A stretch of DNA of 64,000 nucleotides, from positions 125,998 to 189,997 of the forward strand of contig NZ_KE384474.1 in assembly GCF_000425905.1 (NCBI RefSeq), given 5' to 3'. Below the pieces are notes generated by a model. That model made no database searches. It had not been told where the DNA came from and worked only from the letters and a program-made list of their open reading frames with translations. The first letter of the stretch is position 1, and each line of letters begins with the position of its first letter. A program made the position numbers and the translations under genes. The stretch is from Lactobacillus psittaci DSM 15354. Its GTDB lineage: Bacteria; Bacillota; Bacilli; Lactobacillales; Lactobacillaceae. Shown piece by piece: positions 10,289 through 39,668 of this stretch.

Positions 10289-10308
10289 TTTGGATAGGAG
10301 GGTCAAAA

Positions 10309-11184: not shown

Positions 11185-11198
11185 AGGGAGGATTAATC

Positions 11199-12032: not shown

Positions 12033-12053
12033 AAGAATAGATGGAGATAAAAA

Positions 12054-13163
12054 ATGGTTAAAGTAGATTTAGATCACGTATATAAAAAATATGATAATGC
12101 AAGTGATTATTCAGTAACTGACTTCAATTTGCACATCAATGATCATGAATTTATTGTGTTTGTTGGGCCTTCTGGTTGTGGTAAATCAACCACTTTGAGA
12201 ATGATTGCTGGACTTGAAGAAATTTCAAAAGGGACGCTAAAAATTGGCGGTAAGGTCATGAATGATGTTGCTCCAAAAGATCGCCAAATTGCGATGGTTT
12301 TTCAAAATTATGCCTTGTATCCACATATGAGTGTTTATGACAATATGGCTTTTGGCTTAAAGTTGCGGCATTATTCAAAAGAAGATATCGACAAAAAAGT
12401 TAAAAATGCTGCAGAAGTCTTAGGACTAGCACATTTGCTTGATCGAAAGCCAGCAGCTTTATCAGGTGGTCAACGTCAGCGTGTAGCACTGGGGCGGGCC
12501 ATCGTGCGGGATGCACCAATCTTTTTGATGGATGAACCTTTAAGTAACTTAGATGCTAAACTTAGAGTATCAATGAGAGCAGAAATTGCTAAGCTGCACC
12601 AAGATTTGAAGACAACAACAATTTATGTTACTCACGACCAAACTGAAGCAATGACTTTAGCTGATAGAATTGTAGTTTTGAAAGATGGTAAAATTCAACA
12701 AGTTGGCAGTCCCTTAGAAGTCTACAATAAGCCAGCTAATGTCTTTGTTGCCGGTTTCATTGGGTCACCAGCGATGAACTTCTTCCATGTCATTTTGAAA
12801 GATGGCAAGATTGTTGATAAAGATAACCAAGACTTTGCTATTCCAGTCCCAGAAGGTAAGTTAAAGGTACTTAAAGAAAAAGGCTATGACAACAAAGAAA
12901 TTATCTTTGGTATTCGTCCTGAAGATGTCCATACTGAAGAAGTCTTCTTAGAAGCCTTTCCAGAAACTGTTGTCACAGCAACTGTAACTGTATCTGAATT
13001 ATTAGGTGCTGAAACTCAGCTCTATACTAAAGTTGGTACAAGTGAATTAGTTTCTCGCGTTGACGCTCGTGACTTTACCAAGCCCGGTAGCAAGATTAAG
13101 ATGGGCTTTGAAATGAATAAGGCTCACTTCTTTGATGCAGAAACTGAATTGACAATTGACTAA
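12054..13163 (+). CDS. msmK: Sugar ABC transporter ATPase (MalK/MsmK type)
   Basis: 369 residues. The nucleotide-binding domain has Walker [10 protein letters not shown] (39-47), the signature [14 protein letters not shown] near 136, Walker [12 protein letters not shown] near 158 and the H-loop [10 protein letters not shown] near 192. A C-terminal regulatory OB/TOBE domain (from about 240; [13 protein letters not shown]) is present, as in MalK/MsmK. It powers MsmEFG; proteins of this group can also serve other CUT1 importers. It is the last gene of the operon, followed by a terminator. melA and gtfA, which belong to the same operon in L. acidophilus-type clusters, are outside it here. Confidence 0.94.
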
Positions 13164-13203
13164 AGCAAAATGAGATAGCGAAGATAGATTTATCTATACT
13201 ACC

Positions 13204-13232
13204 AAAAAAGACGCCACCAGGCGCCTTTTTGT
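13204..13232. terminator. Bidirectional terminator between msmK and the ABC-F gene
   Basis: An A-run, ACGCC-acca-GGCGC hairpin and T-run lie between convergent genes. Confidence 0.75.
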
Positions 13233-15143
13233 TTATGCAAAATTATCTAAATCATTTACTGCTTGTTCCCAATCATTAGTTGCCTGTTCAAGCTCAGCTT
13301 GAACTTTTGATAAGTCCTCTTGCAGGGGCCCTAACTTATCAAAGTTAGAAGCAATTTCTGGATTTGCCATTTCAGTTTGAATATCATTTTCTTTTTGTTC
13401 TAATTCGTCAATTTTTGCTTCTAAATCATCAACTTTTCTTTGAAGTTTACGTTTTTGGGAATCAAGCTTCTTTTGTTCTTGGTAAGAAAGCTTGTTTTCG
13501 CTAACTTTAGGACTTGCTTCAGTTTCAACAGTAGTGACTTGGTTGACTGGCTTGTTCTTTTCTGCGAGGTAATATTCATAGTTACCTTCGTATATTTTTG
13601 CTTGGCCAGCTCTAACAGAAATAATCTTATTAGCAAGTTGATTAATGAAGTAACGGTCGTGAGATACAAATAAAAGTGTCCCATCGAACTTACTTAAAGC
13701 TTGTTCTAGCACTTCTTTGGCTTCAATATCTAAGTGGTTGGTAGGTTCGTCCATGATTAAGAAATTATCATGTTCTAAGGCTAAAACTGTTAAAGTTAGC
13801 CGAGCCCTTTGACCACCTGATAATTGACCAACAACCTTATCGATGTCTTTAGCAGTAAAAAGAAAACTAGCTAAAATTGAACGGACATCTTTTTCAGGCA
13901 TTGACTTGTGACGGTCCCAGATGGTGTCAATCACAGTCTTCTTATAGTCGAGCCCTTGGAGTTCTTGGTCGTAATATCCAATATCTAAACTAGCCCCGTA
14001 CTTAATTGAACCAGACTTAATTGCGAGTTTTTTCATAATGGTCTTAAGTAAAGTAGACTTACCAATCCCATTAGGTCCAATAATTGCCACACGGTCGCCT
14101 TTGTTAACTTGGAAGGAAATATCTTTGACCATGGTCTTGTCAGGATAACCAATAGTTAAGTCTTGGGCAATCAAGACTTCTTTACCAGAAGGGCGGTCAG
14201 CCTTAAAGTTAATCTTGACCTTGCCACTATGCTTAGGTGGGTCAATTCGCTCTAGTTTTTCTAATTGCTTACGCCGACTTTGAGCCCGCTTAGTGGTAGA
14301 AGCACGAACCAAGTTCTTTTGAATAAAGTCTTCGGCAGCTTTAATTTCTTCTTGTTGCTTTTCATAAGCGGCTTCTTGTTGAGCATCACGTAATTCACGC
14401 TCTGCTAAGTAGTGAGTATAGTCTCCTTTAAAGACGGTCAATTTGCCATACCGCATTTCAAAGATTTGATTGGCCAAATGGTCTAAGAAATATTGGTCGT
14501 GAGAGACGGTTAAGATGGCACCAGTATAGTTTTTCAAAAAGCCTTCGAGCCAATCTAAAGTATCTAAGTCAAGATAGTTAGTAGGTTCGTCAAGCAAAAG
14601 TAGGTCTGGCTTTTTAAGTAGCAATTTAACAAAACTAAGTCTAGTCTTTTCACCACCAGATAAAGAGCCAATTTGTTTATCCCAAGTAGCACTTGGAAAG
14701 TTAAAACCATTCAGCACACTTTTAATATCAGCTTGGTAAGTGTAGCCGCCATTTTGTTCAAAATCAAATTGCATTTGATCATAGCGTTTAAGTAAGTCGC
14801 TATCTTCAGGATGGTCTGCAATTTGAGCTTGCATTCTGGTTAAGTTCTCACCTTGAGCAATTAACGGCTTAAAGACTGTTAACATTTCCTCCCAGATGCT
14901 TTTACTTTCATCAAGGGCGTTTTCCTGGGCGATGTAGCCAACATCGATGTCTTTATTAACAGTAAATTCACCCTTAGTTGATTCTTCTTCACCCGTCATA
15001 ATCTTAAGTAAAGTGGTCTTGCCGACACCATTAGGTCCGACTAGGCCGATACGGGCATTATTTTCAATTGAAAAGTTAATATCTTTAAATAATGTAGTTG
15101 CCCCGAATTGTTTTTCGAGGTCATGTCCTTGTGCAATAATCAT
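13233..15143 (-). CDS. ABC-F family ribosome-associated ATPase (YdiF-like)
   Basis: 636 residues with two ABC domains and no membrane segments. Domain 1 has Walker A GPNGVGKTT near residue 36 and LSGGEKTRLSFVKLL; domain 2 has GPNGIGKST near 356 and LSGGQRARLTLTVLAL. The linker (about 240-310, rich in K, E, Q, R) is the arm that enters the ribosomal E site in ABC-F proteins, and the last 80 residues form a coiled coil. The position next to tsaD and rex matches B. subtilis ydiF. The family frees stalled ribosomes or, in some members, gives antibiotic resistance; the housekeeping position favours the former. It is divergent from rex. Confidence 0.9.
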   Translation of the reverse strand: MIIAQGHDLEKQFGATTLFKDINFSIENNARIGLVGPNGVGKTTLLKIMTGEEESTKGEFTVNKDIDVGYIAQENALDESKSIWEEMLTVFKPLIAQGENLTRMQAQIADHPEDSDLLKRYDQMQFDFEQNGGYTYQADIKSVLNGFNFPSATWDKQIGSLSGGEKTRLSFVKLLLKKPDLLLLDEPTNYLDLDTLDWLEGFLKNYTGAILTVSHDQYFLDHLANQIFEMRYGKLTVFKGDYTHYLAERELRDAQQEAAYEKQQEEIKAAEDFIQKNLVRASTTKRAQSRRKQLEKLERIDPPKHSGKVKINFKADRPSGKEVLIAQDLTIGYPDKTMVKDISFQVNKGDRVAIIGPNGIGKSTLLKTIMKKLAIKSGSIKYGASLDIGYYDQELQGLDYKKTVIDTIWDRHKSMPEKDVRSILASFLFTAKDIDKVVGQLSGGQRARLTLTVLALEHDNFLIMDEPTNHLDIEAKEVLEQALSKFDGTLLFVSHDRYFINQLANKIISVRAGQAKIYEGNYEYYLAEKNKPVNQVTTVETEASPKVSENKLSYQEQKKLDSQKRKLQRKVDDLEAKIDELEQKENDIQTEMANPEIASNFDKLGPLQEDLSKVQAELEQATNDWEQAVNDLDNFA

Positions 15144-22606: not shown

Positions 22607-23617
22607 TTGGATCAAAATAAAGTTACTGTAGCTGAATTTCTTAATAGTCAAAAAGTTTATCCGACAGGATACTACATTTTAGATACTGCCGGAGAAAAGA
22701 CTAATCATTTTGCTGATGCGGATAAAGATTACATTGAATATTCATATAATGTTGGTCGATATAATAAGTTAAAAGTAGGCTCTGTCTTTTTATATCGCAG
22801 AACAACTTCTACCACTAAAGAAGGAAAATTCAAGTTTGATGGTGGTGGAATAATTTCAGCGATCAGTGAACCAGATAATGAAAAGAATGTAGTTGCTAAA
22901 ATTACAAATGCCTTTATTTTTGATCATCCAATTATGCAAGGAGATCCTGGATTAGAGCAGATGACGTGGGAAAGCAAGAAGAAAAAAGTGCCCGGAAAAT
23001 GGAGCCATTTTTGGAATCAGTATGGGATGCAGGAGATTAGTGAAAGAGATTTTCAAAATCTAACTGCAAATCATTTGGTAAAACCACTTGTAAAGGCTTT
23101 CTCACCTAAGGCTACATTTTCAGCTGAAACTATTTCTTCAATGATGACACTTACAATTTATCAGATGAATCAGGAGCACCAATTTGTCTGTCATACTGAA
23201 AAAATAGCTAATGATCTTAGTTTTGCCAAAAATGAAATTGTAGCTGGTCAACTTGGAAAAGAATTGGTCTATCGCTGGTTATGTAAAAAAGCAGTAGAGA
23301 CTGGAAGTAAACGACCAGAAATTATAGATGGTAAATCTGCCGGCGATATCAGGTATTTTGATAGGGATGGTAAAAGAAAAATTGTGGTAGTTAAGACGAC
23401 AATTGCTAGTTATGTGGACAAGTTTTCTTTGAATTCTGTGGAATTGAAATTATTAGCACGAAAACCAGAAGATTTTGAAGTCTTTAGAGTATTTAACTTG
23501 GATAGAAATCATTTAGCTTATGCTGATATAGCAATATATCAGAACTTATGTGATAATAAGAATTTTGTTCAGGTGCCAACTAGAGTCAGAGTTGAATTGA
23601 ATCGAGAAAAGAAGTAG
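22607..23617 (+). CDS. DUF3883-like protein, probable defence-associated nuclease
   Basis: 336 residues, TTG start with an AAGGAAG SD and a TATAAT box at 22569-22574. The C-terminal part (about 215-320) resembles DUF3883: GQLGKELVYRWLCKKA, GDIRYFDRDGKRKIVVVKTT, then FSLNSVELKLLARKPEDFEVFRVFNLD. In DUF3883 the strand normally reads EVK; here it is VVK, so an acidic catalytic residue may be missing or displaced. The first 120 residues (VGRYNKLKVGSVFLYRR, GGGIISAIS) look like a small beta-rich domain, perhaps of the PUA/EVE type that reads modified bases; that is a guess. It heads the defence island, 32 bases before the AbiH gene, likely in one operon. Confidence 0.6.
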   Translation: MDQNKVTVAEFLNSQKVYPTGYYILDTAGEKTNHFADADKDYIEYSYNVGRYNKLKVGSVFLYRRTTSTTKEGKFKFDGGGIISAISEPDNEKNVVAKITNAFIFDHPIMQGDPGLEQMTWESKKKKVPGKWSHFWNQYGMQEISERDFQNLTANHLVKPLVKAFSPKATFSAETISSMMTLTIYQMNQEHQFVCHTEKIANDLSFAKNEIVAGQLGKELVYRWLCKKAVETGSKRPEIIDGKSAGDIRYFDRDGKRKIVVVKTTIASYVDKFSLNSVELKLLARKPEDFEVFRVFNLDRNHLAYADIAIYQNLCDNKNFVQVPTRVRVELNREKK

Positions 23618-23649
23618 AGAGTTTTAAAGTTATAAAAGGAGGAAAAATA

Positions 23650-24915
23650 TTGAAACGACTGATTGTACTAGGAAATGGTTTTGATATTCATTGCGGATTA
23701 AAAAGTTCTTATTCTGATTTTTTCTTGGATAGATTTAAAACATTATTTGGTAAAGGTAAAGAGAATATAAAATCTATTGAAGAATTAGATGATATTTTGT
23801 CTAAAAAAAGGGACCAAATATTATTTGTTATCTCAAATGTAAAAAGTAGTCTGAATTTTAATCCACAAGAAAATCATGACAGCGATTATTTTAAACATTA
23901 TAAAGATAAATATATTTCAAAAGATAGTGATATCACAAGATGGGATTTATTCTTTTTATTTGCTCAAGCTTGTGTAGGTAAGGAAGTAACATCTTATGAA
24001 TGGCAGGATGTAGAATCAATTATCTTTGAAGTGGTATCAATGGCTTTAAATGAGAAGTATAGTCCTAAGGTATCTTATAAAGATGAAATTACGATTGGCA
24101 CGCGTTCATTAAGTGGTAGAAAATTATTTAAAGAAATTATTTATTACCTTTCGTATGTAGGGAAAAACACTTCTGAAGAAGTAGCTGCAGAGTTGTTAAG
24201 TGAATTAAAAAAATTCGAAGACGTTTTTAGCAAATTTATTTCTAGTCAAATTAATTTAGATTGTGCAGATGACGGATATGTTAAGAATGCGATTGACTTA
24301 TATGAAAATATTTCTAAGTGCAATAAACGCAATAAAAATGCGTCAGGAGAACGAGTAGATGTATTAAGCTTTAACTACTCATTGGATGAGGAGTTCAAAA
24401 ATACTTTAGATAGTAAAATAGATGATATGAGATTGAAATCTTGGTCTAATATACATGGAATTGCTCATCATGAAAAGACCCCATATTATCCTGCTCCTGT
24501 TTTTGGAATTGATAACCATGATATTGTGTCTCAAGTTGAAGGAAATGACTTTCGAATATCCTTTACTAAAGAGTATAGGGTAATAGAAAATGGAATCAAC
24601 GAAGTAAGAGCTTCGAACGGATACACAAATACAGATGTGATTTCAATTTATGGGCATTCTTTAGGTGAAGCCGATTATTCGTACTTTGAAGCATTATTTG
24701 ATGAAAATGATCTTTATTTCTCTAACTGTAAATTGGAATATTATTATTACTCTGGTAAAAGTGAAGCAGAGAAGTTGATAAATCGGCAGATGGCTATTAA
24801 AAGTTTGTATAAATTACTTATGAATTATGGAAAAACTTTGAGTGATACACATGGTGCTAATATTGTTACTAAGTTAAATTTAGAAAATAGACTTAGTTTA
24901 ATTCCAAGTAAATAG
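23650..24915 (+). CDS. abiH: AbiH-family phage abortive-infection protein
   Basis: 421 residues, TTG start with an AGGAGG SD. The N-terminus RLIVLGNGFDIHCGLKSSY matches the AbiH family signature (IxGNGFDxxxGLxTxYxxF). Further family marks are VLSFNYSLDEEF, NIHG and the near C-terminal SIYGHSLGEADYSYF. AbiH proteins were found on lactococcal plasmids as phage-resistance factors; the mechanism is not settled. It is placed directly after the DUF3883-like gene and before a terminator, so the pair forms its own unit next to the restriction-modification operon. Confidence 0.85.
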   Translation: MKRLIVLGNGFDIHCGLKSSYSDFFLDRFKTLFGKGKENIKSIEELDDILSKKRDQILFVISNVKSSLNFNPQENHDSDYFKHYKDKYISKDSDITRWDLFFLFAQACVGKEVTSYEWQDVESIIFEVVSMALNEKYSPKVSYKDEITIGTRSLSGRKLFKEIIYYLSYVGKNTSEEVAAELLSELKKFEDVFSKFISSQINLDCADDGYVKNAIDLYENISKCNKRNKNASGERVDVLSFNYSLDEEFKNTLDSKIDDMRLKSWSNIHGIAHHEKTPYYPAPVFGIDNHDIVSQVEGNDFRISFTKEYRVIENGINEVRASNGYTNTDVISIYGHSLGEADYSYFEALFDENDLYFSNCKLEYYYYSGKSEAEKLINRQMAIKSLYKLLMNYGKTLSDTHGANIVTKLNLENRLSLIPSK

Positions 24916-25053: not shown

Positions 25054-25084
25054 TTGTACAAGTAAGATCTGCTATTGCTATAAT
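25054..25084 (+). promoter_or_regulatory. Promoter of the mod1-mod2-res operon
   Basis: TATAAT (25079-25084) preceded by TGC gives an extended -10; TTGTAC (25054-25059) is a -35 candidate at 19 bases. The mod1 start is 36 bases downstream of the -10. Confidence 0.65.
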
Positions 25085-25119: not shown

Positions 25120-27102
25120 ATGATCAAGGATAATGAAAATTACAATGAGAATGTAAAAGCCAATACTGCATTCTTGAATGAATTAAAAGAAAAATTGCCA
25201 GAATTTTTCGGGGGGGGTACGGACCACTTCGACTACGAAAAGTTCAAGCAAGCATTAAAAGAGCATAATGTTGAAGAATTAAAAGATGGATATCAACTCA
25301 ACTTTATCGGTAAGGACTATGCGCGTCGACAAGCTGGAGAACTGCCAACTAGTGTAATTGTTCCAGATGAAGAACAAAATAATGGTGAGGGGAAAGATAG
25401 TAAGAATCTGTTCTTTACAGGAGATAACTTAGAAGTCTTACGTCATTTGCAAGCAAATTATACAGGAAAAATTGACATAATTTATATTGATCCTCCGTAT
25501 AATACAGGAGGAGATGGCTTTACATATCCAGATGATTTTGAATATTCAGATAGTCAATTGAAAGAAATGTTTGGTTTAGATGAAGATGAAGTTGAACGAA
25601 TGAAAAGTATTCAAGGAAGTTCAAGTCATTCAGCATGGTTGACATTTATGTATCCTAGAATCTTCTTAGCTAGACATTTATTATCAAATAAAGGGTGTTT
25701 CTTTATGAGTATAGATGATAATGAATTATCTAATGCAAAATTAATGATGGATGAAATATTCGGTGAAAAACAATATATCTGCATAGCTCCTAGAAAGACA
25801 GGCGCCGGCGCCGCGGCCACTAGATCGGATTCTGAATTACGTAAATTAAATGACTATGTTTTAATTTATTCCAAAAACATTGTTAAATTTAGAAAGAAAG
25901 TTGTAGGAGTAAAAGAATATCCACTTTCTGATAAATATGGAGAATATAGGTTGGGACAATTTCAGGCTTCAGGTTCTGATGCAACAAGAATGGCAAGGCC
26001 TAATATGTACTATCCTATATATTTAACTAAAGATGGACGCCTTACCATAAGATTTAAGGAAGATGTAATAAAAACTATTTTCCCAAGCCAAGTTAATGGA
26101 TTAGACGGTAGATGGATGTGGAAACCAGAAAAATTTGAAAAAGATAATGAAAAATTTATTGAGTATGATGGGAGAAATCTAAAAAGGAAAATTTATAAAA
26201 ATCCTTTAGAAGATCAAACAAAATATCAAGTTGAGAAAGCTTGGTTAGAAAAATATCCAAATAAAAATGGTACAGTTCATTTGGCCGATTTGTTAAAAAA
26301 GAAGGGGTTGTTTAGTAATCCAAAACCTGTGGAATTAATTGAATTTCTTTTGAACTTGGTTGATGTAAAATCACCATTAATTTTAGATTTTTTTGCTGGC
26401 TCATCAACCACAGCAGAAGCTACATTGAGATTGAATATTGAAGATGGCGAAAATCGCAAATTTATTATGGTACAGTTACCTCAAAAGACTTATAGTTTTA
26501 AAAAAAATGGAGAAGAGGTACCAGCTAAAGGGACAGAAGCGGCATATAAAGCAGGCTTCCGCTCAATCGATGAAATTTCTCGTGAACGTATTCGTCGAGC
26601 AGCAGCTAAGATTAAAGAAGAAAATGAACTAACCTTATCTAAAGATTTTGATGGAAGCTTCAAGCATTATTATGTTGTAAAGCCACAGCAAAAGACGTTA
26701 GATGAGATTAATGACTTTGATCCTAATAATACGGACTTGTTTAACAACATGTTGGACAATTTCTCTAGCAAAAATCTTGATGTTCAAGGAAATGCTAAGG
26801 GTGAAGATACAGTTATAACAACTTGGTTAGCTAAAGATGGATATCAATTCGATGCACCTATTAATAAAATAGATCTTGCTGGTTATCAAGGAACAATTGT
26901 TGATGAAACTCGCTTATATTTAATTGCACCAAATTGGACTAGTAAAAACACACAAGATCTTCTTAATAAACTTGGTACCAATCAATTAACAATTCAAACA
27001 GTTGTGATTTTTGGATATTCATTCAATATTGCAGAGCTAAAAGAGTTAGAAACGGGTTTGAAACAACTCGATTCTAATATAAACTTAGTAAAGAGATATT
27101 AA
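25120..27102 (+). CDS. mod: Type III restriction-modification methyltransferase Mod1 (phase ON)
   Basis: 660 residues. It is a beta-class N6-adenine methyltransferase with motif IV DPPYNTG (124-130) ahead of the central target-recognition region and the SAM-binding motif I LDFFAGSSTTAE (near 423), the order typical of type III Mod. The Mod subunit sets the recognition sequence for both methylation and restriction. Codons 31-34 (GGGT) are written by a run of 8 G at 25210-25217; this length keeps the frame open. Residues 228-233 (GAGAAA) come from an 18-base stretch of pure G and C. The next gene, mod2, is a close relative with a different centre. Confidence 0.93.
   Translation: MIKDNENYNENVKANTAFLNELKEKLPEFFGGGTDHFDYEKFKQALKEHNVEELKDGYQLNFIGKDYARRQAGELPTSVIVPDEEQNNGEGKDSKNLFFTGDNLEVLRHLQANYTGKIDIIYIDPPYNTGGDGFTYPDDFEYSDSQLKEMFGLDEDEVERMKSIQGSSSHSAWLTFMYPRIFLARHLLSNKGCFFMSIDDNELSNAKLMMDEIFGEKQYICIAPRKTGAGAAATRSDSELRKLNDYVLIYSKNIVKFRKKVVGVKEYPLSDKYGEYRLGQFQASGSDATRMARPNMYYPIYLTKDGRLTIRFKEDVIKTIFPSQVNGLDGRWMWKPEKFEKDNEKFIEYDGRNLKRKIYKNPLEDQTKYQVEKAWLEKYPNKNGTVHLADLLKKKGLFSNPKPVELIEFLLNLVDVKSPLILDFFAGSSTTAEATLRLNIEDGENRKFIMVQLPQKTYSFKKNGEEVPAKGTEAAYKAGFRSIDEISRERIRRAAAKIKEENELTLSKDFDGSFKHYYVVKPQQKTLDEINDFDPNNTDLFNNMLDNFSSKNLDVQGNAKGEDTVITTWLAKDGYQFDAPINKIDLAGYQGTIVDETRLYLIAPNWTSKNTQDLLNKLGTNQLTIQTVVIFGYSFNIAELKELETGLKQLDSNINLVKRY
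25210..25217 (+). repeat. Poly-G(8) tract in mod1 (ON)
   Basis: Eight consecutive G, 90 bases into the gene. Frame is open at this length. Gain or loss of one G would shift the frame early in the gene. Confidence 0.97.
25399..25436 (+). repeat. 38-bp exact repeat shared by mod1 and mod2 (copy 1)
   Basis: Identical to 27408-27445. It is the longest exact match noticed between the genes; a 32-bp match follows near 25582 and 27592. Such direct repeats allow recombination between the two mod genes. Confidence 0.85.
25801..25818 (+). repeat. 18-base all-G/C stretch inside mod1
   Basis: Two GGCGCC units followed by GCGGCC encode GAGAAA in the target-recognition region. No other gene in the AT-rich island shows such a run. 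It could be a short tandem expansion. Confidence 0.9.
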
Positions 27103-27127
27103 GACTAAGTTTATAGAGGAGATTAGT

Positions 27128-29036
27128 ATGATTAAGGATAATGAGCAATATAATCAAGAAGTAACTCCAACTTCTGCTTTTGAAAAAGAATTAAGAGAAA
27201 AGCTACCTGAATTTTTCGGGGGGGGGTACAGCCGGCTTTGATTACGAGAAGTTCAAGTCTGCACTCAGAAGCAACGGTGTTAAAGAATTAAAAGATGGGT
27301 ATCAGCTCAACTTTATTGGTAAAGATTATGCACGTCGACAAGCTGGGGAATTGCCAACTAGTGTAATTGTTCCAGATGAAAAACAAAACAATGGTGAAGG
27401 TAAAGACAGTAAGAATCTGTTCTTTACAGGAGATAACTTAGAAGTTTTACGCCACTTGCAAGCAAACTACACTGGTAAAATTGACGTGATTTATATTGAT
27501 CCTCCATATAATACAGGGAATGGAGACTTTGTTTATCCAGATAACTTTGATTATACAGATAGTCAACTTAAAGAAATGTTTGGACTAGATGCCGATGAAG
27601 TTGAACGAATGAAAAGTATTCAAGGGAGTTCAAGTCATTCAGCATGGTTGACTTTTATGTATCCGAGATTAGTTTTAGCTAAGAAACTTTTAGCAAGTGT
27701 AGGTGTTGTTCTTGTATCGATTGACGACAATGAGCAATCAAATCTTTATCAGTTACTTTCAGATATTTTTGGTGAAAGCGAAATTGATACAATGATCTGG
27801 AATAAGGAATCTGAAGGAAGTAGTGGTAGCTTAAAAGCTGTAAATCGATTTAAAGGCTCACACGAATATGTATTAATAGCTTATAAATTTAAAGCTGAAA
27901 CTAAATTTAATCAGATACATGAAGCACTTAAAGGAAGAGAAAAAGAATTAGTTACTGCTAATTTAGCAGTAAATCAAAGTGTGGAAAATAAAAACCATCC
28001 TAATTTCTTTACTATAACTAATCCTTCAGGAGATAGTTTTACTAGACAATGGAAATGGAATAAAGAAAAAATTGATGCCCTAATTAATGAAAATTTGATT
28101 TATTGGGGAAGTGATGGACATAAACAGCCACGCTTAATAATTCCATTAGATGAAAGACGTACTATATATTTAAATTCCATTTTAAATTATGGAAGTACAA
28201 CTCAAGGAAGAGTTGATTTTGAAGCCCTTTTTGGTAATGCTTTATTTTCCTACCCTAAACCGGTAGTTTTATTAAAGAAGTTGCTAGAAGCTGTTACTTC
28301 AAAAGAATCGATTATCCTCGACTTCTTTGCCGGCTCCTCAACGACAGCCGATGCTGTAATGCAACTTAACGCAGAAGATGGCGGAAATCGTAAGTTCATC
28401 ATGGTGCAGTTACCAGAAAAGACCTACACTACAAACAAAGATGGCAAAGAAGTTCCAACTAAGGGTGGTAAAGCTGCTTATGATGCGGGCTTCCGTTCAA
28501 TTGACGAAATTTCCCGTGAACGTATTCGCCGTGCAGCTGTCAAAATTAAAGAAGAAAAAGGATCAGATTTACCTGAAAACTTTGATGGAAGTTTTAAACA
28601 CTACCGTGTTGTGAAGCCAAATACCCAAACTCTAAAAGAAATCGATGACTTTGATCCAAATGCAATTGACTTGTTTAACAATATGTTAGATAACTTCTCT
28701 AGTGAAAAATTAAATCTCCCTGGAAATACTACAGGAGAAGAAACTGTTCTTACTACTTGGCTTGCAGCTGATGGTTATAGCTTTGATGCTGATATAAAAG
28801 AACTGAAGATAAATGATTATATTGCTCATATTGTAGAAAATAACCGTCTTTACTTAATTAAAGATGGCTGGACTGCAGAAAATACTAAGACCTTAATCAA
28901 TTTACTAGGCACTAATCAATTAGCAATTCAATCTATCGTATTATTTGGCTATTCATTCAATATTGCTGAATTACGTGAACTTGAAAATGCGCTTAAACAA
29001 TTGGATGCAAATGTAAACTTAATCAAGAGGTATTAG
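27128..29036 (+). CDS. mod: Type III methyltransferase Mod2, frameshifted at poly-G (phase OFF)
   Basis: From ATG 27128, with an AGAGGAG SD six bases upstream, the reading frame copies the Mod1 N-terminus. It passes through 9 G (27218-27226) and stops at TGA 27239-27241 after 37 codons. With 8 G the frame would read GGGTAGFDYEKFK, as in Mod1, and continue to the stop at 29036, giving 635 residues. The downstream frame is fully open and holds DPPYNTG, LDFFAGSSTTAD and a conserved C-terminus. Residues equivalent to Mod1 220-400 differ (IWNKESEGSSGSLKAVNRF), so it should have another target. All features point to a reversible OFF state rather than decay. A TTG at 27351 has no proper SD. Confidence 0.88.
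27218..27226 (+). repeat. Poly-G(9) tract in mod2 (OFF)
   Basis: Nine consecutive G at the position homologous to the mod1 tract. The extra base shifts the frame to a stop 13 bases further on. Confidence 0.95.
27408..27445 (+). repeat. 38-bp exact repeat shared by mod1 and mod2 (copy 2)
   Basis: Second copy of the match at 25399-25436. Confidence 0.85.
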
Positions 29037-29037
29037 A

Positions 29038-32022
29038 ATGAGAATAAAACTTGAAACATTGCCTCATCAAACTCGGGCATTAGAGGCAATTAATAAGAAA
29101 TTCCCAGGAATTGATAAGTATAGTGATGATCCTGATGCTAACTATATTTATGCAAATCCTTTAATTAAAGGTAGATATCAAGAAAAGAATAATATTGATA
29201 TAAAAATGGAAACAGGTACTGGTAAAACTTATGTTTATACCAGAATGATGTATGAACTACATAAACAACATGGCTTATTTAAGTTCATTATAGTTGTACC
29301 TTCTCCAAGTATTAAGGAAGGTACTCGTAGCTTTATTACTAGTGATTATGCTAAGCAACACTTTTCTGAATTTTATGAAAATACAAGTGTTCAACTTAAC
29401 GTAATTAATAAGGGGGACTTTAATAGTCGCTCAGGTAGAAAAAATTTCCCTGCTCAATTATCTGAATTTGTAGAAGCAACTAGACAAAATGTTAATCAGA
29501 TTCAAGTGCTTTTAATTAATGCAGGGATGCTTAATTCTAAGAACATGAAGTCATCTGATTATGACCAAACTTTGCTTGGTGGTGAAACTTGTCCTTTAAA
29601 GGCAATTGCGGCTACAAGACCAGTAGTTATAATTGATGAACCTCACCGCTTTCCTAGAGATAAGAAGTTCTACAAAATGATTGAAGAACTCAAGCCACAA
29701 TGGATTGTTAGATTTGGGGCTACTTTCCCAGAAATTACTGAAGGTAGGGGAAAGAATAAAGTAGTTAAACGGGATTACTATCGTGGTGAACCTCAATTTG
29801 ATTTGAATGCGATTGATAGTTTCAATCAGGGATTAGTTAAAGGAATTGATATTGACTATCCAGATCTTTCAAAAGAAGAAGCAAGTAATCTTTATAAAGT
29901 TAAATCTGCTAAACCACGTGAGTTAACTCTGACTAAGGATGGAAAAGAATATACCATTAAAAATGGTGAAAATTTAGCAGATATTGATCCTGAATTTGCT
30001 GGTTCTATTACCTATGAAGGTAGTTCTGATCACTTGCTGTCAAATGGTTTAGCTCTTGAAAAAGATATGAAGTTAATCCCAGGGATATATTCAACTTCTT
30101 ATCAGGATCAAATTATTACAGAAGCAATTGATAAGCACTTTAAGGCTGAGAAAGCTAACTTTTTAAGACCAAATAATGCACCAAAGATAAAGACACTTTC
30201 ATTATTCTTTATTGATAGTATCTACAGTTTTAGAGGATCAAAAGATGGCAATGGTAAAGGCTGGTTAGCTGAACATTTTGAAAAGATCTTAACTAAAAAG
30301 TTGAAGGATGAAATCGAAGAAGCAGAATTTGCAATTTCTGATCGTGAAAAAGAGTATGCCTCATTTTTGAAAGCAACTTTAAAGAGCCTAAATTCAGATA
30401 ATCAAGATGTATATGCTGGTTATTTTAGTGAAGATAATGCTAATAGTGATGAAGAGATCCAAAAGCAAGTAGATGATATTCTTAAGAACAAAGAGAAGCT
30501 TTTAAGTTTTAAGGATAAAAATGGTAATTGGATTACCAGAAGATTCTTATTCTCTAAATGGACTTTGCGTGAAGGTTGGGATAATCCTAATGTATTCGTA
30601 ATTGCTAAGTTACGTTCTTCAGGTTCAGAAAATAGTAAGATTCAAGAAGTAGGTCGTGGTTTGCGTTTACCAGTTGATGAAAATGGTCACCGACTTCCAC
30701 AAGAAGAATGGCAAAGTCGTTTATCTTTCTTAATCAGTTTTGATGAAGAAGAATTCGCCAGTAAATTAGTTGGAGAAATTAACAGCGACGTACGAATTAA
30801 AATCGATAAGACTAAACTTACTGATGATATGGTGGATTTAGCAGTTAAGGAAATACAAAAAGATAATCCTGACTATTCTAAGAAAGATTTACTTAACAAA
30901 CTTGGTAAGCTAGGAGTAATTGACTTCGATCATAATTTTGAAGATAGAGTAACAGTTGATAATGAAGAAATGTCAGGTTATGACGCATTTATGAAACTCT
31001 ATCCTGCTGTTGAACACAAGACTCATATTGTTGAAGGTACAGTAAGAGATATGAAAGCAGCTAAAATCGATCCAACTAGAATTAAGCTTCGCAAGAGTAA
31101 TTGGGATATGTTAAAAGATCTTTGGCAACAATTAGCTCGTAGACAAATGATCGTTTACAGCGATGGTATGAATGAGCAAGCCGCTTCAATTGCTAAAGAA
31201 GTGTTCAGAAATGATGATAATTTTGTAATTCATTCACGTGAAATCATTCACCAAGAAATTAGATCTGGACAAGATAAAACTAAAGTCGAAATTCGTGATA
31301 CTCGCCAAGATTATAATTCTGGATATTACACTCTAGCTTATGGTAAATTCCTTAAGCAATTAGCAGTAAGTACTAACTTATCAGTTAATTTGATAAATAA
31401 CTTGATGATTGATGCTATGGCGCGTTTTAATAATCAAAAGAAATATATCAATGAAAAAACTTTAGCCAACTTAATTAGAGACTTTAACAAGCGATTCAAT
31501 GAAGTGTTAAAGGAAAACTATCATTATCAAAAGTTAGACTTTTACAGTAATACGTCTATTTACAATTCTCAAAAGCAAGAATTTGTTGATACTGTTCCAG
31601 CGACTGCCTTAGGAATTTATTCTGATAATGCGGTTGAAGATGATAAATATTTGTACGATCGTCCACCTCTTCGCTTTGATAGTACTGATCCAGAATTGAA
31701 AATTTTAAAGCGTACATATGATGATAAGATCATTGCTTTTGGTAAATTACCTAAGAGTGCAATTAAGATCCCAAGATATGACAAGGGAACTACTACCCCT
31801 GACTTTATTTTTGTAATTGAACGAGAAGATGGTCAGAATTCTTATCTTGTAGTAGAAACTAAAGCTGAAAATATGCGTAAAGATGATGAAGTGATTACGT
31901 CAATTCAAAAGAATTACTTTGATCAATTAAAGAATAGTAATGTCTACTATAAGATGGCTACAAGTGAAGATGACTTTAGAAATAAACTTCAAGAAGTGGA
32001 AGATAGTGAGGAGATTAATTAA
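29038..32022 (+). CDS. res: Type III restriction endonuclease subunit Res
   Basis: 994 residues, usual for Res. It has a superfamily 2 helicase core with Walker A METGTGKT (57-64) and Walker B-like IIDEPHRF (D200-H203), then FSKWTLREGWDNPNVFVIAKL and QEVGRGLRLPV (motif VI). The C-terminal PD-(D/E)XK nuclease shows PDFIFVI near 921 and VVETKAE near 940. Res joins Mod to cut DNA beside paired inverted sites after ATP-driven sliding. The start lies one base after the mod2 stop with its own SD (AAGAGG), so it can be made when mod2 is OFF. The stop overlaps the next ATG (TAATG), showing translational coupling to the ParB-like gene. Confidence 0.95.
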   Translation: MRIKLETLPHQTRALEAINKKFPGIDKYSDDPDANYIYANPLIKGRYQEKNNIDIKMETGTGKTYVYTRMMYELHKQHGLFKFIIVVPSPSIKEGTRSFITSDYAKQHFSEFYENTSVQLNVINKGDFNSRSGRKNFPAQLSEFVEATRQNVNQIQVLLINAGMLNSKNMKSSDYDQTLLGGETCPLKAIAATRPVVIIDEPHRFPRDKKFYKMIEELKPQWIVRFGATFPEITEGRGKNKVVKRDYYRGEPQFDLNAIDSFNQGLVKGIDIDYPDLSKEEASNLYKVKSAKPRELTLTKDGKEYTIKNGENLADIDPEFAGSITYEGSSDHLLSNGLALEKDMKLIPGIYSTSYQDQIITEAIDKHFKAEKANFLRPNNAPKIKTLSLFFIDSIYSFRGSKDGNGKGWLAEHFEKILTKKLKDEIEEAEFAISDREKEYASFLKATLKSLNSDNQDVYAGYFSEDNANSDEEIQKQVDDILKNKEKLLSFKDKNGNWITRRFLFSKWTLREGWDNPNVFVIAKLRSSGSENSKIQEVGRGLRLPVDENGHRLPQEEWQSRLSFLISFDEEEFASKLVGEINSDVRIKIDKTKLTDDMVDLAVKEIQKDNPDYSKKDLLNKLGKLGVIDFDHNFEDRVTVDNEEMSGYDAFMKLYPAVEHKTHIVEGTVRDMKAAKIDPTRIKLRKSNWDMLKDLWQQLARRQMIVYSDGMNEQAASIAKEVFRNDDNFVIHSREIIHQEIRSGQDKTKVEIRDTRQDYNSGYYTLAYGKFLKQLAVSTNLSVNLINNLMIDAMARFNNQKKYINEKTLANLIRDFNKRFNEVLKENYHYQKLDFYSNTSIYNSQKQEFVDTVPATALGIYSDNAVEDDKYLYDRPPLRFDSTDPELKILKRTYDDKIIAFGKLPKSAIKIPRYDKGTTTPDFIFVIEREDGQNSYLVVETKAENMRKDDEVITSIQKNYFDQLKNSNVYYKMATSEDDFRNKLQEVEDSEEIN

Positions 32023-33332
32023 TGACATCACTGATGCAATTAGTTGAAAGTGGTCAAATTGAAAAAACAGGTGCTAAGCCTAAACTGCCAGTTAAGATAG
32101 ATGGAATAAATGAAGAAAATTTATATGTATATCGAATTCCGCTAGATTTACTATTTTATAATGATAAAAATGGCCGTATTGCGACAGGGATGCAAAGGCT
32201 CGCAATGACTATGGATCCTGTTTCTGATAGAATTGATCCTTCATATAACGATCAAATTGCTGAACTGATTGAAGCTGATAATAAAGCAGCTTTAAAGCAA
32301 ACCCAAGCATCTATCAAAAAGAATGGTCAAAAGTTATTTGGTTATGTTCTAGATGATGGCCGGATTATTGATGGTAATCGTCGTTTTACAGCACTTAGAA
32401 ATTTGCAGAAAGAAACTGGCAAGACCTATTATTATGAAGCGGTTATTTTGCCATTTACTTTTGATGCACAAACTGATCGAATTAAGATTAAAAAGCTTGA
32501 AATTGCTATTCAAATGGGAATTGAAGAGCGGCAATCTTATAATCCAGTTGACTTAGCACTTGATGTTTATAACACAACTTCTGGTGAAAATAAGATGATG
32601 TCAATTGAGGATTATGCTTCTGATGCCAATATGAAAATTAAAGAAGCAAAACAAATCCTTGATGCTGCTATTTATATGCGCAAGTTCTTGGAATTTATAG
32701 GTGCAGATCAAAATAACTTCTCAATTATCAAAGATTCTAAGACGTATTCTCTTTTTGTTGAAATGGCTAGAAAACTTGAGAGTGGCAAAATCTTTGGTGA
32801 TGACTTAGATAGTGAAGTCGAAAAAAATGAAACTATTAGAACTTATTTTGCCTTGATTCTTTATGAAATCAAAGTTGGAGCTACGAGCAATCAAAGTACT
32901 CTAGCTTATAAAATGAGAGATTATGTCAAAAAAATTGTTGATTCAGATAAAAATGAAGACTTTAATGACGACATGAGTGATCATGTTGATGACATTGAAG
33001 ATACTTTAAACGATCAAACAATTAATAATTTGACTGATCTTTCAAATGCAATGAAAGAAGTAAATGATCAATTTGATCAAGTTGGTGAAAAGTTCGATCG
33101 GCAATTAAGAGAATCTAACAAGCAAGAAACCGCAGAAGCATTGGTTTCAGATGTTTCAGATGCTGTTTCATTATTGAAAGAACTTGAGCAAAATGGTGGA
33201 TTGAAGACTAATCTTACTTATAGTCAATTTGATCGTGATCAAATTCAAAAATTGCAGTATAGTATGCGTGATTTAGCAATTTTAGCCAAGAAGTTGTTTG
33301 AAAAATATGGTGAAGAATTAGATGAATCCTAA
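32022..33332 (+). CDS. ParB/Srx-like domain protein coupled to the type III system
   Basis: 436 residues. An N-terminal ParB-like nuclease-fold domain is suggested by VYRIPLDLLFYNDKNGRI, IKKNGQKLFGYVLDD and GRIIDGNRRFTALRNL (about 112-126), the last matching the ParB box (GxRRxxA). The fold binds nucleotides in ParB and carries nuclease activity in other members. The C-terminal half is acidic and helical, possibly a coiled coil (residues 290-380). Its start overlaps the res stop by one base and its end overlaps the helicase gene by 11 bases. Such packing argues that Res, this protein and the helicase work together. A role in a standard type III enzyme is not known. Confidence 0.7.
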   Translation: MTSLMQLVESGQIEKTGAKPKLPVKIDGINEENLYVYRIPLDLLFYNDKNGRIATGMQRLAMTMDPVSDRIDPSYNDQIAELIEADNKAALKQTQASIKKNGQKLFGYVLDDGRIIDGNRRFTALRNLQKETGKTYYYEAVILPFTFDAQTDRIKIKKLEIAIQMGIEERQSYNPVDLALDVYNTTSGENKMMSIEDYASDANMKIKEAKQILDAAIYMRKFLEFIGADQNNFSIIKDSKTYSLFVEMARKLESGKIFGDDLDSEVEKNETIRTYFALILYEIKVGATSNQSTLAYKMRDYVKKIVDSDKNEDFNDDMSDHVDDIEDTLNDQTINNLTDLSNAMKEVNDQFDQVGEKFDRQLRESNKQETAEALVSDVSDAVSLLKELEQNGGLKTNLTYSQFDRDQIQKLQYSMRDLAILAKKLFEKYGEELDES

Positions 33333-35193
33333 AGTTATCGAAACTGAAACTGGTCAATTTCAATTAGTGGATGATGAAGCTCAAACTTTACAAACAAGAG
33401 CTGCACAAAGAGTAATTAAGACATTCGCTCCTTATTTTGAAGATGAAGACGCAATGGTTTTTAAAGCAGAATTAAATTATGTTCAGATGTTAACCTTGAT
33501 TGATAAACTAAACAAAAAACTCGCCAAGAAAAATCTCCCCTTAGTTGAAACAAGTCAAGATTTCAATGACTTTGTTGATCAGCGTAAATATGCTATTAAA
33601 GAGCAACGTGATGCTGGAATTATGATCAAAGACGGCAATCCAAGATGGCAAAAAGAATTCGAAGAGTTTAAGCGAATAGTTGCTAATGAAGTAAGTCGTC
33701 CATTAAAGCCAGAACAAGAAAAGGCTAGTTTTTTCTTAAGTGTTATGAAAAGAGCTGCTAATTTTTCTGTTCCTGGTGCGGGCAAGACGGCTATGACCTA
33801 TGGTGCATTTGCATATCTTTCAAGTCCAGAGAAAAATGAAGTAGACAAAATGCTAGTTGTTTGCCCTTTGAACGCCTTTTATGCTTGGCAAAGTGAATTT
33901 AAAGAAGTATTTGGTGATAAGAGACAGCTCAAGGTATTAAACTTCAGAGCCAGTCAATTTGATAACAATTCTGGTGCAATCGAGTTTGCATGGCCAAATA
34001 TTAATTTGGCAATTATTAATTATGAATCACTTGCCAAAAATAAAGATTTGATCAATCGTTTAGTCGATGAAAAAACTATGTTAGTTTTTGACGAAGTCCA
34101 TAGAATTAAAGGTGTTCATGGTCAAAGAGCAAAAGCTGCTCTAAACTTGAGCAAGAAGCCATATTATCGTTATGTTTTAACAGGTACACCAATTCCGAAT
34201 GGTTATCAAGATATATTTAATTTCTTGCATATTATGTATCCAGATGAATATTCATCGTTTTTTGCTTGGAGTTTGAATGATTTAAGTCATATTGATGCCG
34301 AATCGGTAAATGAAAAATTAGCTCCATTTTTTTGGCGAACAAATAAAGAGGATCTCGAAGTTCCAAAGCCTGATCCAGATATAATTTATAAAAATGTACC
34401 AAGTGAAGATCAAGTGGCACTTGCTGAATCAATTTATGAGCATGAAAATGGAGCTTTGGCTCTTTATATTCGTTTGTTACAGGCATCAACCAATCCAAGC
34501 TTATTGAGATATAACATCAATTACCAAGATCTTGGATTAACCGAAGGTGAGTCTAAAGAATGGGATGAAAGTAAGACTAAGATTGAACGACAAAATATCA
34601 GTAACGCTGACAATTATCGGAAATTTAAGCTTGAAAAAATGAGCTCTCCGAAATTTGAGAGAGGGATCAAGTTAGTAAAAGAGCTAACATCCCAAGGTAA
34701 AAAGGTATTAATCTGGGGGATGTTTGTTGGTACGATGGAAAAGATTACTGATACTTTAAATAAAGCGGGTATCAAATCTATTTTAATTTATGGTGGAACT
34801 CCTAAGGAAATGCGGGATGGATTAATTGAGCAATTTAGACATGGTGATGTTCAGGTATTAGTATCTAATCCAAATACTTTAGGAGAATCCATTTCATTGC
34901 ACCAAACCGTTCACGATGCAATTTATTTTGAATATAATTTCAACTTAACATTTATGTTGCAGTCACGTGATAGAATTAATCGTTTGGGACTTCCAGCAGA
35001 TCAATATACTAGATATCATTATTTGATGACTGAAGGAGATACTGCTCATGCAAGTTTTATTGATGAAAAAGTGTATGAGCGATTAAAAGAAAAAGAACAA
35101 GTCATGATTGATGCGATAGATGGTAAGATGCTTGTTCCTGAATATACTGATGATTATCTCGAAGAAGTTAAGAAGATTGTTATGGATAGATAA
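33322..35193 (+). CDS. SNF2-type helicase/ATPase coupled to the type III system
   Basis: 623 residues. Helicase motifs are complete: I PGAGKT (151-156), II FDEVHRIKG near 256, III LTGTPIPNG near 286, then the SNF2-type YPDEYSSFFAW. The second RecA domain starts near 455 (GKKVLIWGMF, IYGGTPKEMRDGLIEQF) and motif VI is QSRDRINRLG near 547. The first 130 residues carry no known domain. SNF2 ATPases move along double-stranded DNA and occur in DISARM and related defence loci. It is last in the five-gene operon and followed by a terminator. Its 11-base overlap with the ParB-like gene marks a co-evolved pair. Confidence 0.85.
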   Translation: MNPKVIETETGQFQLVDDEAQTLQTRAAQRVIKTFAPYFEDEDAMVFKAELNYVQMLTLIDKLNKKLAKKNLPLVETSQDFNDFVDQRKYAIKEQRDAGIMIKDGNPRWQKEFEEFKRIVANEVSRPLKPEQEKASFFLSVMKRAANFSVPGAGKTAMTYGAFAYLSSPEKNEVDKMLVVCPLNAFYAWQSEFKEVFGDKRQLKVLNFRASQFDNNSGAIEFAWPNINLAIINYESLAKNKDLINRLVDEKTMLVFDEVHRIKGVHGQRAKAALNLSKKPYYRYVLTGTPIPNGYQDIFNFLHIMYPDEYSSFFAWSLNDLSHIDAESVNEKLAPFFWRTNKEDLEVPKPDPDIIYKNVPSEDQVALAESIYEHENGALALYIRLLQASTNPSLLRYNINYQDLGLTEGESKEWDESKTKIERQNISNADNYRKFKLEKMSSPKFERGIKLVKELTSQGKKVLIWGMFVGTMEKITDTLNKAGIKSILIYGGTPKEMRDGLIEQFRHGDVQVLVSNPNTLGESISLHQTVHDAIYFEYNFNLTFMLQSRDRINRLGLPADQYTRYHYLMTEGDTAHASFIDEKVYERLKEKEQVMIDAIDGKMLVPEYTDDYLEEVKKIVMDR

Positions 35194-37082: not shown

Positions 37083-39668
37083 ATGGCTGACACAACTCCA
37101 ATGATGCAACAATACTATGATATTAAGGCGCAATATCCTGATGCCTTTTTGTTCTACCGCGTTGGTGACTTCTATGAACTGTTTGAAGATGATGCGGTAA
37201 AAGGCGCGCAAATCTTAGAATTGACCCTGACCCACCGCTCTAATAAGAGTGAGAATCCGATTCCTATGGCTGGTGTGCCTCACCAAGCAGTGGATTCTTA
37301 TGTGAATACTTTGGTCGAGAAGGGGTATAAGGTAGCGCTTTGTGAACAACTTGAAGACCCTAAGCAGGCTAAGGGAATGGTTAAGCGTGGAATTATCCAG
37401 TTAGTCACTCCCGGAACTATGATGAACGAAGGGCATAATGGTAGCGATAGTAACTATTTGACTTCGGTCTTTTCAACTAAGACTGGTTTTGGGCTAGCTT
37501 ATTCTGATTTATCCACTGGTGAAATTTACACAACTCACCTTAAGAGTTTTAATGATGTCTTGAATGAGTTATTGTCCTTGCGTACTAAGGAAGTTGTCTA
37601 TGAAGGAGCCTTGACTGCTAAGGAAAAGGATATCTTAAAAAAGAGCAATATCACTATTTCTCAACCAGTAAAAGCTGAAAAAGAACATGCCGAAGTGTCT
37701 TATGCGGTGCAAAAGTTGACTAATCCTGGGGAAAAGAATGCAACTAAGCAGTTAGTTGTGTATTTGTTGTCAACCCAAAAAAGGAGCCTGGCGCACCTTC
37801 AAATTGCTCAAAGTTATGAAGTATCACAATATTTGCAAATGTCACATGTGGTGCAAAATAACTTGGAATTAGTTGCTAGTGCTAAGACCGGTAAGAAGAT
37901 GGGGTCGCTATTTTGGGTGCTAGATAAGACTAATACTGCAATGGGAAGTCGCTTGCTTAAGCAGTGGTTGGCACGGCCACTTTTGAGTAAGGAGGCAATT
38001 GTGGCTCGGCAAGATATGGTTCAGGCCTTACTTGATAACTACTTTAGCCGGGAAAATATTAAGGATGCTCTAAAGGGTGTCTATGACTTAGAGCGCTTGA
38101 TTGGCCGAATTGCCTTCGGGAGTGCAAATGCGCGTGAACTCTTGCAGTTAAGTAACTCACTTGAAGCAATTCCAGTGATTAAGCAGGCTTTGTTTGAAGC
38201 AGGCGATGAGACTTTAGCTAAGTTTGCGGATGATATTTTAGACTTGTCTGAAGTAGCCAAGAAGATTCGCAAGACGATTGTTGACGACCCGCCAGTTTTA
38301 ACTACTGATGGTGGCATTATTCGTGCAGGCGTTGACGAGCAACTTGACCGCTATAAAGATGCGATGAATAACGGTAAGAATTGGGTGGCACAACTTCAAG
38401 CTAAAGAGCGTGAAGTTACCGGAATTGAAAACTTGAAGGTGGGCTACAATAAGGTCTTCGGCTACTTTATTCAAGTGTCTAAGGGTAACGTTGCTAAGGT
38501 GCCAGAAGGGCGTTATATTCGTAAACAAACTTTAACTAGTTCAGAGCGTTATATCACTCCTGAACTAAAAGAGCATGAAAACTTAATTCTTGAAGCAGAA
38601 AATAAGTCAACTGACCTTGAATATCAAATCTTTACCCAGTTAAGAGAATATATCAAGACCTTTATCCCTAAGTTGCAAGCCTTAGCAAATACTGTGGCTA
38701 GCTTGGATGTCTTTGCCGGCCTAGCAACAGTAGCTGAAAGCAATAATTACTGCCGGCCAAGTTTTGATACTGACCACCAAGCAATTAAGGTTGTAGCTGG
38801 TCGGCACCCAGTAGTTGAAAAGGTCTTAGTTGATGGTGAATATATCCCTAACGATGTTCGCATGGATGAAGCTACTAGTGTCTTCTTGATTACTGGACCT
38901 AACATGTCTGGTAAGAGTACTTACATGCGGCAGATGGCGCTGATTGCTATCATGGCTCAGATTGGTTCATTTGTCCCAGCTCAAGAAGCTAAATTGCCAA
39001 TCTTTGATCAGATTTTTACCAGAATTGGGGCAGCTGATGACCTAATTAGTGGGCAGTCAACCTTCATGGTAGAAATGAGCGAAGCTAATGATGCTTTGCA
39101 ACATGCCACTAAGCGCTCACTCGTCTTATTTGATGAAATTGGCCGCGGAACTGCGACTTACGATGGGATGGCGTTAGCTGGGGCAATTGTTAAGTACTTG
39201 CATGACAAGATTGGCGCTAAGACCTTATTTGCAACCCACTACCATGAATTAACTGATATGGATAAGACACTGGACCATTTGAAGAATATCCACGTGGGTG
39301 CCACTGAAGAAAATGGCAAGTTGATTTTCTTACATAAGATTTTGCCAGGCCCAGCTGATCAATCATACGGTATTCACGTTGCCCAACTTGCGGGTTTGCC
39401 AACGCGGGTCTTAACTGAAGCTAGCAAGATGCTTAAGCGACTAGAAGCTCAAGGAGCTAGTGCGGTTGAGCCAGCAAGTTTGCAACTGGATTTGTTTAGT
39501 CCAAGTCAAGCAGATGAAGCAAGTGAAGCTGCTGAGACTAGCAGTTTAACTAAGGCCCAAGAGCAAGTCTTAGATGAATTAAACAGTCTATATTTAGCTG
39601 ACAAGACACCACTAGAAATCATGCAACTAGTCAATAATTGGCAACAAGATTTGAAGGATGAAAATTAA
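37083..39668 (+). CDS. mutS: DNA mismatch repair protein MutS
   Basis: 861 residues, the normal length. The N-terminal mismatch-reading loop is present (FLFYRVGDFYELFEDDA, with the Phe-x-Glu pattern FYE). The core and clamp are followed by the ATPase with Walker A GPNMSGKST near 611, the DEIGRGTATYDG segment and THYHEL. MutS finds mismatches and small loops and recruits MutL. Such loops include slipped poly-G tracts like those in mod1 and mod2. Its stop overlaps the mutL start by one base (TAATG). The operon likely extends through mutL, ruvA and ruvB. Confidence 0.98.
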   Translation: MADTTPMMQQYYDIKAQYPDAFLFYRVGDFYELFEDDAVKGAQILELTLTHRSNKSENPIPMAGVPHQAVDSYVNTLVEKGYKVALCEQLEDPKQAKGMVKRGIIQLVTPGTMMNEGHNGSDSNYLTSVFSTKTGFGLAYSDLSTGEIYTTHLKSFNDVLNELLSLRTKEVVYEGALTAKEKDILKKSNITISQPVKAEKEHAEVSYAVQKLTNPGEKNATKQLVVYLLSTQKRSLAHLQIAQSYEVSQYLQMSHVVQNNLELVASAKTGKKMGSLFWVLDKTNTAMGSRLLKQWLARPLLSKEAIVARQDMVQALLDNYFSRENIKDALKGVYDLERLIGRIAFGSANARELLQLSNSLEAIPVIKQALFEAGDETLAKFADDILDLSEVAKKIRKTIVDDPPVLTTDGGIIRAGVDEQLDRYKDAMNNGKNWVAQLQAKEREVTGIENLKVGYNKVFGYFIQVSKGNVAKVPEGRYIRKQTLTSSERYITPELKEHENLILEAENKSTDLEYQIFTQLREYIKTFIPKLQALANTVASLDVFAGLATVAESNNYCRPSFDTDHQAIKVVAGRHPVVEKVLVDGEYIPNDVRMDEATSVFLITGPNMSGKSTYMRQMALIAIMAQIGSFVPAQEAKLPIFDQIFTRIGAADDLISGQSTFMVEMSEANDALQHATKRSLVLFDEIGRGTATYDGMALAGAIVKYLHDKIGAKTLFATHYHELTDMDKTLDHLKNIHVGATEENGKLIFLHKILPGPADQSYGIHVAQLAGLPTRVLTEASKMLKRLEAQGASAVEPASLQLDLFSPSQADEASEAAETSSLTKAQEQVLDELNSLYLADKTPLEIMQLVNNWQQDLKDEN

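Follow-up and report, generated by a model that had tools for sequence, protein, structure and literature searches.

In the phasevarions of Haemophilus, Neisseria, Helicobacter, Moraxella and Kingella each type III methyltransferase gene (mod) lies, to our knowledge, in a locus of its own, whereas two such genes stand in tandem in the operon of Lactobacillus psittaci DSM 15354 analyzed here, which is located within a 64-kb stretch of contig NZ_KE384474.1 (hereafter, the window). The likeness to those phasevarions would reside in the repeat-driven ON/OFF switching of a type III mod (PMC7394358). Repeats are present in 17.4% of the type III mods in REBASE, and Actinobacillus pleuropneumoniae carries two distinct repeat-bearing mods, which would share four ON/OFF combinations with the present pair; the available part of that account does not state a tandem arrangement with one restriction subunit, Res (PMC7394358). 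The closest described arrangement is that of Mycoplasma agalactiae 5632-like strains, in which the tandem mods MAGa1570 and MAGa1580, about 65% identical, bear GA repeats and are associated with one Res. Both genes were suggested to be phase variable and a heterodimer was considered, while fragment analysis gave active length variation only in the MAGa1580 homologues of two strains (PMC9465063). The L. psittaci operon resembles this pair in its two tandem type III mods with repeats near the 5′ end and res downstream (likely an operon in M. agalactiae), and differs from it in having poly-G instead of the GA dinucleotide and in its ParB-like and SNF2 genes, unmentioned in the accessible portion of the M. 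agalactiae account (PMC9465063). Tandem repeat-bearing mods with one Res are already known, and by this comparison the poly-G pair would be a variant of them; an earlier note on this DNA, which had called the paired version unusual in a Lactobacillus, has to be amended by this precedent.

Among Gram-positive bacteria, ModS of Streptococcus suis is also a type III mod with a 5′ repeat, but it differs in that each strain has only one such mod, whose recognition region is allelic, and in its pentanucleotide unit, GAGCA (PMC6265453). The GAGCA unit is also found, as (GAGCA)30, at a related mod of genome G395. Poly-G switching in Gram-positives has been described for Bifidobacterium pili (PMC9187656) and suggested in Gardnerella, including surface-protein and methyltransferase genes (PMC11287997). 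In lactobacilli, no title or abstract opening among the literature matches listed for phase variation describes such a system.

The operon has the order mod1-mod2-res-ParB-like-SNF2 and is probably an EcoP15I-like type III system in which a G tract at codons 31-33 of each mod acts as a switch through slipped-strand mispairing. We base this reading on the anatomy of both genes, the selection acting on mod2, the repeats that recur at related mods and the positions of G tracts across the genome. The elements of the proposed switch are:

25120..27102, forward strand: mod1, type III DNA methyltransferase of 660 aa, ATG at 25120, open (ON)
25210..25217, forward strand: G8 tract of mod1, codons 31-33
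27128..29036, forward strand: mod2, type III DNA methyltransferase, ATG at 27128, frame broken by the tract (OFF)
27218..27226, forward strand: G9 tract of mod2, at the same codon position as in mod1
27239..27241, forward strand: TGA stop of mod2 at 9 G, after 37 sense codons

The anatomy that the earlier note had proposed was borne out: two tandem type III mods with one Res and poly-G at homologous codons, mod1 open throughout its 660 codons with 8 G, and mod2 stopped after 37 codons with 9 G. Codon 30 (...KLPEFF) directly precedes the tract in both genes and each tract starts at codon 31, near the 5′ end. Both frames are open at 5, 8 or 11 G, that is, only at lengths 3n apart, while 6, 7, 9 or 10 G lead to a stop at codons 37 to 55. 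Removal of one G leaves mod2 open, as had been claimed: its other frame, read from 27219, runs for 605 codons after the tract without a further stop until 29036, retains the residues of the catalytic motifs DPPY and FFAGS, and shows no sign of decay. These two tracts are the only G/C runs of at least 7 in the window, the next longest being one of 6 and seven of 5. Three 8-G matches (the 9-G run scores twice) were observed against a mean of 0.15 in 100 dinucleotide shuffles of the window; since one of the 100 shuffles has at least as many, the presence of the tracts alone is only mildly unusual, and their occurrence at a shared codon in two tandem paralogues is the stronger fact. Two GGG codons open each tract; GGG makes up 10.8% of the glycine codons in the window open reading frames (ORFs) other than the mods, which gives 0.108^4 = 1.4e-4 if codons are drawn independently. 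In a structure model that is weak overall (mean pLDDT 67.3) and was used for this purpose only, the residues encoded by the tract fall in a predicted loop that links two helices, a block with a pLDDT of about 64.

Assignment of both Mods to the EcoP15I family relies on domains PF01555 and PF18273 (the EcoP15I C-terminal domain), found in mod2 in the part downstream of 27351, and on the best PADLOC model for both, MTase_III PDLC03641 (6e-194 for mod1); mod1 matches the EcoP15I Mod (PDB 4zcf) at 6e-78. The D124-P-P-Y and FFAGS columns are invariant in 20 aligned mods (mod1 and 19 relatives) and mod2 has the same residues. Both proteins show the layout of beta-class N6/N4 methyltransferases, with DPPY before and an FxGxG-type motif after the recognition region. 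EcoP15I (PDB 4zcf) shares the Mod family and the domain layout. It differs in lacking a glycine run at the aligned site and in having one kind of Mod in the complex (PMC4490356).

The two genes diverge most in their central parts, whose boundaries were set as follows:

25765..26304, forward strand: target-recognition region of mod1 (aa 216-395), delimited from the alignment
27774..28238, forward strand: target-recognition region of mod2, approximate bounds

Mod1 and Mod2 are 80% identical over aa 36-215 and 66% in the C-terminal part, against 17% in the recognition region, in agreement with the claim that the recognition regions differ. For comparison with relatives we used 26 near loci from the genus and family (8 from one set and 18 from another); L120-L123, which are distant, L167, which is a fragment, and two loci of Salmonella that hold only mod and res were left out. 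The alignment holds 24 relatives, namely 22 of the 26 near loci plus the two Salmonella mods. In the tree mod1 and mod2 group as sisters by their N-terminal parts (97/94; 98% of bootstrap trees) but not by their C-terminal parts (2%), which suggests that the tract-bearing 5′ part is of single origin or was copied between the genes. Synonymous divergence (dS) is 0.90 in the N-terminal part (nonsynonymous divergence, dN, 0.15) and 2.7 in the C-terminal part. This contrast and that of the trees indicate a 5′ part younger than the rest, or homogenised. The recognition region was probably exchanged: in mod2 it shares 61% identity with its counterpart in an intact mod from another genus (G075), against 14-24% with those of the other 23 aligned relatives. 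None of the 24 has a G run at the tract site; other residues occupy it, most commonly T-K-(D/E)-G-x-F-D, and the residue count around it varies. Because all 24 have other residues there, the G tract was most likely gained in the present lineage. Simple conservation of poly-Gly at the site was also considered, and was rejected on the differing residues in 24/24 relatives.

Repeats of other kinds accompany related mods. Among 43 mod-like rows of family loci (some genes being split in two), scanned from 400 nt upstream to the end, a repeat was found in 11, or in nine when two A runs are left out:

G027 mod: G8
G008 mod: (GCACA)20
G132 mod: (TCAC)9 twice, flanking an assembly gap
G373 and G281 mods: (TGAGT)10 and (TGAGT)11
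G201 mod, from another type III system: (GACA)19
G100 mod: (AGAC)20
G395 mod: (GAGCA)30
L026 mod: (AC)18

Seven of the 26 near loci have a repeat at the mod, so that type III mods with repeats are no rarity in the family, a point on which the earlier note needs correction. The repeat of G100 is in frame with mod from the mod's own ATG; that of G395 is in frame when read from an upstream ATG and out of frame when read from the one at the repeat. In G008 (L118 1-205, the contig beginning within the repeat) and G132 (L152 9073-9317, the repeat holding an N gap) the repeat apparently lies inside a short leader ORF that terminates in a stop overlapping the start codon of mod, so a switch by translational coupling is possible. 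In G027 (L117 7671-7678) the G8 before motif I puts a single mod out of frame, and with 7 G it would read the family sequence LMGGNYFDTPKP. The mod of G014, frameshifted close to a G6 run in a comparable region, is a weaker case. This variety of repeats at related mods suggests that repeat-driven switching arose several times in the family. A second mod in the related operon was not seen in the 26 near loci, although one may have been cut off at L114, L118, L155 and L165, where the contig ends in mod or at most 300 nt upstream. Genome G037 has two separate loci of this kind on two contigs (L114, L115). More than one mod-like match occurred in two loci, G201 and L037, of 96 fetched, 89 of which had a mod match. 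The G201 locus (L230, reverse complement 9679-13539) belongs to another type III system and also has its mods in tandem, two in number; the second is open with (GACA)19 at its start, and the first is a short ORF with a repeat remnant.

Outside the operon, the 1.54 Mb assembly contains, on both strands, 14 runs of at least 7 G, five of at least 8 and one of 9, which is the mod2 tract. Several are associated with genes of YSIRK surface proteins (stretches L169, L171, L173-L175):

C1:141836, C1:417965 and C8:8924: G runs inside YSIRK surface-protein genes, first 110 codons
C1:410640, C5:28801 and C6:55550: G runs upstream of YSIRK genes

The tract G's are on the coding strand in all six, and these tracts are candidate cell-surface switches. 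One run lies in the spacer of TTGACA-19-TAGAAT before the gene of an exported protein that we take to be levansucrase-like, one at the ribosome site of a transporter gene, presumably of the ABC type, one inside a tRNA-Met gene, and three elsewhere. Runs of G7-G9 flanked by TTGACA-like and TAAACT/TAGAAT-like hexamers, for the most part ahead of exported proteins, were noticed at C3:12962 (L172) and C5:28801 (L173) of this genome and in L203-L205, L223, L224 and L226 of other genomes, in all cases without a chance control. A length change in such a run would alter promoter spacing. In 40 stretches from seven genomes picked for many tracts (one stretch from G043), 43 runs of at least 8 were found; 14 of the 43 lie between hexamers fitting the −35/−10 consensus at 9/12 or more, and seven at 10/12 or more, counted without a chance control. 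Some orthologous tracts vary in length by species (for example, ahead of a 334-aa gene, 8 G in G021 and in G014 but 9 G in G059), and many other tracts, above all in G018, have no promoter-like context. Judged by their positions, the G tracts of this genome are placed non-randomly, and this placement is the more interesting by-product of the analysis. It might even be, although we put this forward as a tentative and rather doubtful extension, that the genome holds a poly-G switch set comprising the tandem Mods on one Res, YSIRK surface proteins and the promoter spacers of exported proteins, in which one mutational mechanism would diversify phage defence, methylome and cell surface, with a heterodimer as third activity when both Mods are ON.

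We propose the following mechanism for the operon. Slipped-strand mispairing in a G tract would change its length within the population; at 5, 8 or 11 G a full-length Mod would be made, and at other lengths translation would stop within 55 codons. Each Mod would pair with the one Res, and hence the cell would mark and cut by specificity 1, specificity 2, both or neither; the change in methylation may alter gene expression or phage resistance. The four states postulated in the earlier note would fit two Mods for one Res, one gene open and the other shut, and fall short in ignoring Mod1-Mod2 heterodimers, which may form when both are ON: the two Mods of EcoP15I split the work, one recognizing the DNA and its partner methylating it (PMC4490356). 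Two Mods with one Res provide a natural test of heterodimeric Mod function. If the tracts switch, a member of a mostly harmless, food-related bacterial group would vary in restriction specificity and perhaps also in gene expression, as host-adapted pathogens do; a clonal culture would then be a mixture of methylation types, with effects on transformation efficiency, phage resistance of cultures and strain reproducibility.

Other explanations can account for part of these observations. Mod2 is at present out of frame, and the mods of G035 and G014, in the same genus, are broken, as expected if mod2 were a recent pseudogene, shut by a chance frameshift in a slippery run with no switch used by the cell. 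This we consider unlikely: its 605 codons after the tract have no other stop, the open mod1 has the same tract, and mod2 is under purifying selection, with a constraint no weaker than that on mod1. In the C-terminal part the pN/pS ratio against G046 is 0.27 for mod2 and 0.35 for mod1, and against G438, G201 and G031 mod2 is below mod1 each time; for the mod2 recognition region against G075 it is 0.355. The force of these values is reduced by synonymous sites that are saturated or nearly so in most of the comparisons, and between unlike recognition regions (14-24% identity) the ratio is about 0.75-1.13 for both mods and uninformative. A dN/dS test for decay of mod2 gave no sign of it, and that candidate was rejected. 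The length of homopolymers is, as is generally known, often misread, and mod2 is intact apart from its tract, so an assembly or sequencing error might conceal a mod2 of 8 G and two constitutively expressed mods. Such an error, however, would affect only the state called, and both genes would still have a slippery tract; pure tracts of 8-9 G occur in both mods and at the site in none of the 24 aligned relatives, and few 8-G runs are met with in the genus (present in 39 of 75 genomes, none in 36), which makes this explanation distinctly improbable. It is generally known, too, that 8-9 identical bases can make a polymerase or a ribosome slip, in which case the 9-G gene would yield some full-length Mod2 without any change in DNA; related mods, however, use tetra- and pentanucleotide repeats, a better fit to phase variation at the DNA level, and we hold slippage in transcription or translation to be very unlikely.

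Phase variation by G-tract slippage remains the preferred reading, with several observations weighing against it. The data come from a single assembly in which no length variation was observed, and the G8/G9 difference is one between paralogues only. Tracts of 8-9 G are short for fast slippage if mismatch repair works. MutS limits homopolymer slippage, and a full-length 861-aa gene that we take from its sequence to be mutS lies downstream of the operon at 37083-39668. The numbers of G runs in the genome are no higher than composition predicts (about 20.5 of at least 7, 4.0 of at least 8 and 0.8 of 9), so that what counts is the position, a codon shared by two paralogues in tandem. The excess at YSIRK genes, where a run of at least 7 G lies within 350 nt of 6 of the 12 sites recognized by Pfam YSIRK against 0.076 expected (P about 2.5e-10), derives from a test devised after three cases had been seen and with the 350-nt limit set afterwards. 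Nineteen of the 26 near loci are without the counted kinds of repeat, one of them having an A10 run, and the shut mod of G027 may reflect decay because the SNF2 gene of the same operon (about 14312 of L117) is also frameshifted.

The remaining elements of the operon are:

25055..25084, forward strand: promoter-like site upstream of mod1, TGTACA-18-TATAAT with TG before the −10, a consensus match only
29038..32022, forward strand: res, type III restriction subunit, full length, 994 aa (PF04851, PF19778; NF012027 at 1279 bits, cut-off 564)
32022..33332, forward strand: accessory gene, 436 aa, conserved after res; its Lactococcus plasmid counterpart is annotated as a ParB N-terminal domain protein
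33322..35193, forward strand: accessory SNF2-type helicase, 623 aa (PF00176)

Consensus matches of this kind number 30 in the region, fewer than the shuffle mean of 45.7. Res, which begins 1 nt after the mod2 stop codon, has the helicase motor and C-terminal nuclease domains. The 436-aa gene had no match at E 0.001 in Pfam, PADLOC or NCBIfam, and the matches of the SNF2-type helicase to other defence helicases in the family libraries are weak. All four genes (mod, res, ParB-like and SNF2) are present in 18 of the 26 near loci; the other eight are missing at least one of them, are truncated by a contig end or are decayed. By annotation, the four-gene order also occurs on plasmids of Lacticaseibacillus paracasei, Lactiplantibacillus plantarum, Limosilactobacillus reuteri and Lactococcus lactis; that of L. 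paracasei, of 8.8 kb, is annotated with just these four genes, in a gene table that is perhaps incomplete. Plasmid relatives (E up to 1e-40) amount to 203 records, all below 60% identity, and the five best named matches are lactobacilli. In the eight plasmid loci fetched among 30 listed, an A9 run lies upstream in one and the other seven are without the repeats sought, with only 156 nt upstream covered in L233. Just upstream of the operon, at 22607-24915, a NOV_C-domain gene and an AbiH-like gene are found; AbiH adjoins the related operon in G037 too, and for these reasons the region around the operon looks like a defence island.

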